From: Leisingera sp. NJS204
GTDB taxonomy: Bacteria > Pseudomonadota > Alphaproteobacteria > Rhodobacterales > Rhodobacteraceae
NCBI RefSeq assembly: GCF_004123675.1
Contig: NZ_CP035417.1
Location: 3,463,501-3,527,500 of the forward strand
Length of the DNA stretch: 64,000 bases
Reading direction: 5' to 3'
Part shown: positions 9,692 to 9,876 of the stretch, piece by piece
Layout: each line of letters begins with the position of its first letter
Numbering within the stretch: the first letter of the stretch is position 1
Made by a program: the position numbers and the translations under genes
The notes under the pieces: generated by a model
What the model was told of the DNA's origin: nothing
Database searches by the model: none
What the model saw: only the letters and a program-made list of their open reading frames with translations

Positions 9692-9876
9692 GGCAAGGCT
9701 GGTTTCCGGACTGTCCCGGGGCCGCTTTGGCGGCGGGGCCTGGCACCTTCCCGAAGCCTTTGGCTTCAGTGGTTGTTTGCCATGCCTTGCCCGGGGTCAC
9801 CGTTGCGGGGGCAGTGCCGGAGTTTCACCAGCTTCCCAATTCTCCGCCCCGAAGGACGGCACCTTGCTATCTGCGG
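9692..9876 (-). promoter_or_regulatory. Cobalamin (adenosylcobalamin) riboswitch
   Basis: Read on the minus strand, 9836-9800 gives GGGAAGCTGGTGAAACTCCG followed by CACTGCCCCCGCAACGGTGA, the conserved core of the cobalamin aptamer (GGGAA, GGTGAAA, CC, CTGCCCCCGCAACTGT). The 3' box is AGTCCGGAAACCAGCC at about 9712-9697, and the 5' element AAGGTGCC lies near 9866-9859. The aptamer ends about 120 bases before the Rieske gene start, with no other gene between, so it should control the demethylase and its reductase. In this family, B12 binding normally lowers expression. Confidence 0.9.

Follow-up and report, generated by a model that had tools for sequence, protein, structure and literature searches.

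Why should the gene for a Rieske oxygenase, predicted to remove a methyl group from a quaternary amine, be preceded by an RNA with the features of a cobalamin riboswitch? The question arose from the original prediction of such an RNA in a 64,000-nucleotide stretch of the genome of Leisingera sp. NJS204, referred to here as the window. The aptamer, the operon behind it and a nearby transporter gene are as follows.

9680-9881, minus strand: cobalamin riboswitch aptamer (RF00174), with core GGGAAGCTGGTGAAACTCCGGCACTGCCCCCGCAAC and 3' box AGTCCGGAAACCAGCC; 105.4 bits, covariation over 23 aptamers
8339-9574, minus strand: Rieske oxygenase alpha subunit of 411 aa, predicted to be a GbcA-like quaternary-amine N-demethylase from NCBIfam, Pfam and PDB matches
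7249-8334, minus strand: GbcB-like reductase subunit (FAD, NAD, 2Fe-2S), assigned from NCBIfam and domain matches; an internal ATG was taken as the start, the open reading frame extending to 8352
3782-5440, plus strand: BCCT-family transporter (betaine/carnitine/choline type); PF02028 at 511.6 bits, betaine BCCT model at 438.8 of 650

A cmscan of the window gave a single RF00174 match, on the minus strand at 9680-9881, with E 2.4e-25 and an alignment covering the whole model (positions 1-189 of 189). The claimed aptamer is therefore a full-length one, scoring 105.4 bits and thus far above the gathering score of 31.5, which settles the covariance check that had been proposed. Its predicted span, 9692-9876, was correct in location, although the true ends are slightly wider; the three core motifs named in that prediction were all present on the minus strand, together with a 3' box, AGTCCGGAAACC. 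Comparison of 23 aptamers (the window and 22 relatives) showed standard pairs in 82.1% of the named aptamer structure, as against 29-49% when one arm was slid by one to three columns. Changes on both sides were found in 24 of 51 aptamer pairs (shuffled mean, 18.0) and in 101 cells (shuffled mean, 37), and the covariation score of 0.277, compared with 0.135 after shuffling, was not reached in any of 500 shuffles. The 12-pair P1 region of the model was supported in part (72.6% paired, the lower half mostly unpaired), and model helices 8 (34.8% paired) and 13 (58.2% paired) were poorly supported. The aptamer is real and has been kept by selection; a chance or fossil aptamer is ruled out by the covariation across this set.

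The next gene on the same strand is that of the Rieske oxygenase, which forms a two-gene operon with the reductase, in agreement with the predicted output of the riboswitch; its likely start, the ATG at 9574-9572, lies about 100 bases 3' of the aptamer. A different gene on the opposite strand had been foreseen as a possible true target. The next recognised gene upstream, an open reading frame at 10154 with a RibD_C domain, is on the plus strand and is ruled out, the sole RF00174 match being on the minus strand. The oxygenase scored above the cut-offs for the Rieske domain (PF00355, 62.3 bits) and Ring_hydroxyl_A (PF00848, 127.9 bits), which places it among the Rieske non-haem iron oxygenases, and its sequence contains CxH and CxxH, which we take to be the ligand motif of the Rieske 2Fe-2S cluster.

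Between the aptamer and the start codon, four further features could be recognised.

9666-9678, minus strand: hairpin H1, CCGC-GGACG-GCGG, a candidate P13/L13 just 3' of the aptamer, read from the sequence
9629-9639, minus strand: C/U-rich tract ATCCCTTTGCC, a candidate anti-Shine-Dalgarno, from the distance of the best partner in leaders
9590-9605, minus strand: hairpin H2, GCCGC-GGGGAT-GCGGC, immediately 5' of the ribosome site
9581-9588, minus strand: Shine-Dalgarno sequence GAGGAGAG, six bases before the ATG, from the sequence

As sequence, the GC hairpin predicted to act on the ribosome site does exist and corresponds to H2. In 42 leaders (the window included and the decayed L109 left out), a hairpin with a GGG loop was found at the H2 place in 35, and a hairpin of at least 4 bp with a GG loop was found in the H1 region, in varying register, in all 42, both figures being raw counts without a shuffled control. 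H1 reads ACCGC-GGGTG-GCGGT in many relatives, and an automated hairpin search of this region in the window gave a best-scoring hairpin that differs from H1 itself. The G-rich loop of H2 could form a kissing interaction with the C-rich loop of the aptamer (TGCCCCC), as in the L5-L13 contact of this riboswitch class.

The possible partners of the ribosome site were counted in 40 of the 42 leaders (L029 and L053, in which no ribosome site was recognised, were left out), with two same-strain pairs among the rows (L118 with L025, and L120 with L026) and with shuffles that preserve base composition only. In the Leisingera group, each of 21 leaders had the C/U tract, about 42-48 bases upstream, as the best partner (mean z -2.8), where about 23% would be expected. 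Of the 19 remaining leaders, 12 had their best partner at the C/U tract distance, again against 23% expected, and their energies did not stand out (mean z -0.25); the pairing energy of the window's own tract was weak (z +0.46). A model in which the G-rich arm of H1 would pair with the C/U tract, as an anti-anti-Shine-Dalgarno, received no overall support in 41 leaders (mean z -0.31, 20 below zero; L102, which lacks the G arm, was left out); many leaders of the Ruegeria/Shimia type do have a long stem of this kind in their predicted folds. Taken as sequence, these features fit translational control in which B12 would close the ribosome site.

A survey of homologous loci for co-conservation, proposed along with the prediction, showed that the pairing recurs. 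Among the 80 best of at least 594 confirmed oxygenase matches in genome contigs, a motif search located an aptamer core 213-295 bases before the matched gene start in 24, one of these aptamers being decayed. In 22 of the 24, the Rfam scores ranged from 80.9 to 125.9 bits; the decayed copy, in Primorskyibacter (L044 5729-5775), scored 32.0 bits, and that of L026 was seen by motif only. At the 56 loci that were riboswitch-less by motif, the covariance model gave no match in front of the gene in any of the 45 that were scanned. The pairing was found in Leisingera, Loktanella, Sulfitobacter, Phaeobacter, Pseudophaeobacter, Ruegeria, Shimia, Marinibacterium, Pelagimonas, Roseibium, Marivivens, Pacificoceanicola, Primorskyibacter, Gemmobacter and Rhodobacter, and in a Rhodobacteraceae MAG. 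Within the genus, the aptamer lies beside the gene in 12 of 13 genomes, the window included; in the thirteenth (L109, about 1190-1430) the core is mutated and there is no RF00174 match. Riboswitch-bearing genes were distributed over several lineages of the oxygenase tree and did not form one clade, one of the groups consisting of eleven rows. On a first-pass tree, in which three rows had been translated from the wrong strand, the riboswitch label required 9 changes, compared with 21.6 in shuffles. The riboswitch may have arisen once and then been lost more than once. In Paracoccus kondratievae (L093), a remnant core with three mismatches and no Rfam match lies about 261 bases before the oxygenase gene, and a selenocysteine insertion element (RF01989, 80.4 bits) is present near the same gbcA-like locus, at L093 9071-9129.

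The loci with and without the riboswitch also differ in their neighbours. We compared 81 loci, 25 riboswitch-bearing (the window included) and 56 without, using a simple ORF caller that recovered the oxygenase itself in 76; the reductase cluster was present in 67. Three gene clusters occurred at riboswitch-less loci and at none of the 25 riboswitch-bearing ones, namely a LysR-type regulator (25 of 56), an OYE-type demethylase (22 of 56) and a third gene (18 of 56), and a GbdR-type regulator cluster was found at 2 of 25 loci with the riboswitch versus 12 of 56 without. The absence of the first three means that the riboswitch-bearing pair mostly stands alone, the visible input being B12 rather than the substrate. 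The BCCT transporter lies outside the operon and is a nearby clue to the substrate only; it did not form a recurring cluster beside the operon in the 81 loci. Near it in the window (2730-3662, minus strand) is a LysR-type regulator gene whose nearest model is the choline sulfate utilization regulator (267.7 of 324.8 bits).

If the oxygenase replaces a B12-dependent enzyme, that enzyme should have relatives in the same genomes. According to a 2025 study by Mausz and colleagues (PMC12478193), mtgC and mtgD are genetically needed in Ruegeria pomeroyi for both glycine betaine use and methionine synthesis, and the first demethylation of betaine in Ruegeria is tied to a corrinoid protein via MtgBCD; on the basis of proteomics and homology, the same study places MtgB among the PF06253 (MttB-family) proteins and gives RamA and DUF1638 a role in corrinoid reactivation. 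A B12-dependent counterpart had been expected elsewhere in the genome of the window, and there we found relatives of mtgC (C1:2301711) and mtgD (C1:2020861) and nine intact MttB-family genes; a further MttB-family gene (C1:3178838-3180234, minus strand) is in pieces, with internal stop codons. Two of the MttB proteins were compared with solved structures. Their best match was 4yyc ('putative trimethylamine methyltransferase', 540 and 714 bits), followed by 2qne ('putative methyltransferase') and 9yce ('glycine betaine methyltransferase') at 326-390 bits, and their scores against the trimethylamine methyltransferase 7xcl were far lower (102 and 129 bits). Four of the MttB genes (L137, L140, L141 and L143) have as neighbours, adjacent or no more than about 3 kb away, genes for proteins of 805-824 aa that by their look resemble dimethylglycine/sarcosine dehydrogenases, which suggests betaine-type substrates. 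Some of the MttB genes may act on betaine.

Beyond this genome, we searched 49 others, 24 with the riboswitch (the decayed L044 included) and 25 drawn from the 56 riboswitch-less loci; the window's genome was added to the first set for MtgC, MtgD, MetH and MetE (n=25) and not for RACo and MttB (n=24). Relatives of MtgC turned up in all 25 genomes of the riboswitch set and in 19 of the 25 others, and the counts for MtgD were the same; RACo was present in 24 of 24 versus 19 of 25, and the MttB family in 24 of 24 (median of 5 copies) versus 20 of 25 (median of 1). All 25 genomes with the pairing, the window's included, therefore carry relatives of mtgC, mtgD and MttB. The idea that MtgC and MtgD are confined to riboswitch genomes is contradicted, 19 of the 25 riboswitch-less genomes carrying both, so that possession of the B12 route is not enough to predict a riboswitch. 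The classical MetH domain (PF02965) was found in 5 of 25 genomes with the riboswitch versus 17 of 25 without (Fisher p 0.0014, ignoring kinship between genomes), and the MetE-type domain PF01717 in 12 of 25, the window counted, versus 15 of 25, most of these matches being weak. A domain search of the window's genome detected neither PF02965 nor PF01717.

Adjacency of the two systems was seen in two species only. The riboswitch-bearing operon and mtgC of Roseibium hamelinense and R. aquae are transcribed away from each other, with about 0.6 kb between them, and the riboswitch sits in this gap on the strand of the operon. The best NCBIfam match of the corrinoid protein was MtgC, at 208.8 bits and below the cut-off of 370. 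Behind mtgC in R. hamelinense come DUF1638, a short PF13769 gene, a gene of 299 aa resembling that of methylene-THF reductase (with no family match), mtgD and RACo; the set is repeated in R. aquae, except that DUF1638 was not called.

The reading that we prefer, and hold to be probable, is that a gbcAB-like operon carries in its leader a cobalamin riboswitch of the ordinary kind, with cobalamin as the presumed ligand, and that low B12 turns on an oxidative, B12-free betaine demethylase, sparing a shared corrinoid protein for methionine; repression by B12, its action at translation, betaine as the substrate and the sparing itself are likewise presumed. Known cobalamin riboswitches mostly repress. 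With plentiful B12, the aptamer would be bound and the leader would fold so that the GAGGAGAG site is closed by the GC hairpin, and perhaps by the C/U tract, keeping the oxygenase low. Betaine would then be demethylated via the corrinoid route, with MtgB of the MttB family, the corrinoid protein MtgC, the pterin protein MtgD and RamA/RACo. As B12 falls, the leader would open and the oxygen-dependent Rieske enzyme, which would need no B12, would carry out the first demethylation, converting betaine to dimethylglycine and formaldehyde. The presence of both routes suggests that the cells choose between them by B12 level. Methionine, too, is made with MtgC and MtgD, and neither classical MetH nor MetE was detected in the genome, so the chief benefit is probably that scarce corrinoid is spared for methionine. 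We therefore favour B12 sparing, which fits better than full B12 independence and refines the earlier reading of the oxygenase as a substitute for times without B12. In addition, a 2025 report (PMC12366255) describes a Phaeobacter enzyme, Bmt, that can make methionine from betaine without cobalamin, and methionine of this origin would add to the B12 economy. Weighing against the preferred reading are the MtgC and MtgD relatives in most riboswitch-less genomes, the GbdR-type cluster at two riboswitch-bearing loci, the curated cut-offs missed by both subunits, the 4yyc matches of the two MttB proteins, the weak ribosome-site pairing in the window and outside the Leisingera group, the scatter of riboswitch-bearing genes over the tree, and the decayed aptamers.

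The substrate is the part of this proposal most exposed to an alternative. GbcA and GbcB were the best named NCBIfam models for the two subunits, with 517.6 bits for the oxygenase against a cut-off of 670 (NF058607) and 359.1 bits for the reductase against a cut-off of 500 (NF058606); since both stay below the curated values, the substrate may be another betaine. The closest solved structures to the oxygenase by sequence were 3n0q (750.8 bits; 'putative aromatic-ring hydroxylating dioxygenase'), 3vca (666.8 bits; 'Ring-hydroxylating dioxygenase') and 4qup (666.5 bits; 'Monoxygenase; demethylase'), the latter two of which we take to be the stachydrine demethylase Stc2. It is possible, though less likely than the preferred reading, that the switch works as proposed on proline betaine (stachydrine) or another quaternary amine, with the oxygenase replacing another MttB-family enzyme. 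The full-length matches to 3vca and 4qup at 667 bits, the missed GbcA cut-off, the many possible substrates left by the nine MttB-family genes, and a proC-like gene in four riboswitch-less loci all point that way. Against it, the best named model is still GbcA, and ten relatives of the oxygenase scored much the same on it (479-522 bits), which also means that the GbcA score does not separate substrates. The nearest named relatives, among the best 80 of at least 594 matches, were from Leisingera, with 94% identity.

Less likely again is that the operon serves B12 synthesis, low B12 leading to the demethylation of betaine toward glycine and so to precursors of the corrin ring (glycine for 5-aminolevulinate, and one-carbon units). 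Riboswitch-controlled genes are usually those of B12 supply, and the genome appears to make B12, cobW and cobN-like genes lying behind another of its riboswitches. It has six other cobalamin riboswitches, whose targets include a TonB receptor with a BtuF-type set, the cobW/cobN type, cbtA, DUF4198 with a CbiM-type set, and a periplasmic binding protein, several of these names (e.g. the cobN type) being given by the look of the sequence; directly 3' of one of them is a small, cysteine-bearing ORF of 142 aa without a Pfam match (L010 10706-11134, minus strand). In addition, a review (PMC8123684) states that betaine and choline stimulate formation of the 5-aminolevulinate precursor and raise B12 yield. 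The operon, however, contains the first demethylation only, and, among the clusters that were seen more than once and given a label, those resembling sarcosine oxidase or dimethylglycine dehydrogenase were beside none of the 25 riboswitch-bearing loci.

The other riboswitches near these loci bear on the same point from both sides. A second cobalamin riboswitch was present in 5 of 23 scanned riboswitch-bearing loci versus 1 of 45 scanned riboswitch-less loci (Fisher p 0.015, again ignoring kinship). In Pelagimonas (L036) it precedes a divergent gene set resembling cobalt transport and in Ruegeria (L032) genes resembling B12-related ones, which would suit an operon for cobalt or B12 supply; L058 also has one in its locus. 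In Shimia (L031 12180-12370, minus strand) and Marivivens (L042 5392-5575, minus strand), however, it precedes genes of class Ib ribonucleotide reductase (nrd), which is another B12-free stand-in, and the neighbour in Roseibium is the corrinoid methyl-transfer operon. At a Salipiger locus whose gbcA-like gene has no riboswitch, a cobalamin riboswitch lies near nrdHIEF-type genes (L073 9833-10025, plus strand). Least likely of all is that the riboswitch activates the operon with B12 or is non-functional, the oxygenase then being no low-B12 back-up, since the unproven sequestration of the ribosome site, for which the window's own pairing is weak, and the decayed copies in L044 and L109 are set against pairing and core kept across 23 aptamers, unlike a dead element, against the general tendency of these riboswitches to repress, and against the 38 of 86 reporters that were repressed with a corrinoid in PMC9600662.

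Returning to the low-B12 demethylase as the preferred reading, its components are known separately. The full-length aptamer, its conserved core, its covariation and its position in a 5' leader are as in other RF00174 riboswitches, and it differs from them in its target, a Rieske oxygenase. Among B12-free isozymes under riboswitch control, metE is an example. A regulon collection that includes 15 Rhodobacterales genomes (PMC3766115) treats B12-free isozymes of B12-dependent enzymes under B12 riboswitches as a known category. By analogy, the present system would resemble these in combining, within one genome, a B12-dependent route with a B12-free enzyme that B12 presumably represses; unlike them, it would replace corrinoid methyl transfer by an oxygen-dependent oxidation, and in a catabolic step. 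The route for which gbcAB stands in is likely to be that of MtgBCDE of R. pomeroyi, which comprises a B12-dependent betaine methyltransferase and methionine synthase. In the available text of PMC12478193, gbcAB is treated as the route of other bacteria, some being named that have gbcAB and lack MtgBCDE, and was left out of an ocean survey for its low abundance; here, by contrast, gbcAB and mtg relatives co-occur, with gbcAB behind a B12 riboswitch. The pair resembles GbcAB of Pseudomonas and Chromohalobacter as a two-part Rieske oxygenase and reductase for which it is the best named family match; it differs in falling below both curated cut-offs and in having beside it neither the LysR nor the demethylase cluster seen with riboswitch-less relatives. 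Stc2, compared by overall sequence, is also among the closest solved structures (667 bits), and we know of no riboswitch associated with it. We found no published link between a cobalamin riboswitch and a betaine-demethylating Rieske enzyme in the open-access literature, supplementary tables aside. As far as the literature searched extends, the aptamer and the logic of B12-free isozymes are known and the Rieske oxygenase as a target is new.

In the sea, glycine betaine is of major importance both as food and as an osmolyte, among the most abundant of its kind. Whether Roseobacters and some other Alphaproteobacteria in general pick their betaine demethylation chemistry, corrinoid transfer or oxidation with O2, by sensing B12, the riboswitch reserving the shared MtgC corrinoid for methionine in times of B12 scarcity, is a broader claim that we regard as evenly poised. 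The pairing offers a ready-made genetic test of how B12 is rationed between catabolism and methionine. If the proposal is true, B12 supply decides what becomes of betaine and of its methyl groups, methyl-folate or formaldehyde; gbcAB would be a conditional route in several Roseobacter genera, and B12 supply would set the turnover of this abundant osmolyte by marine bacteria.
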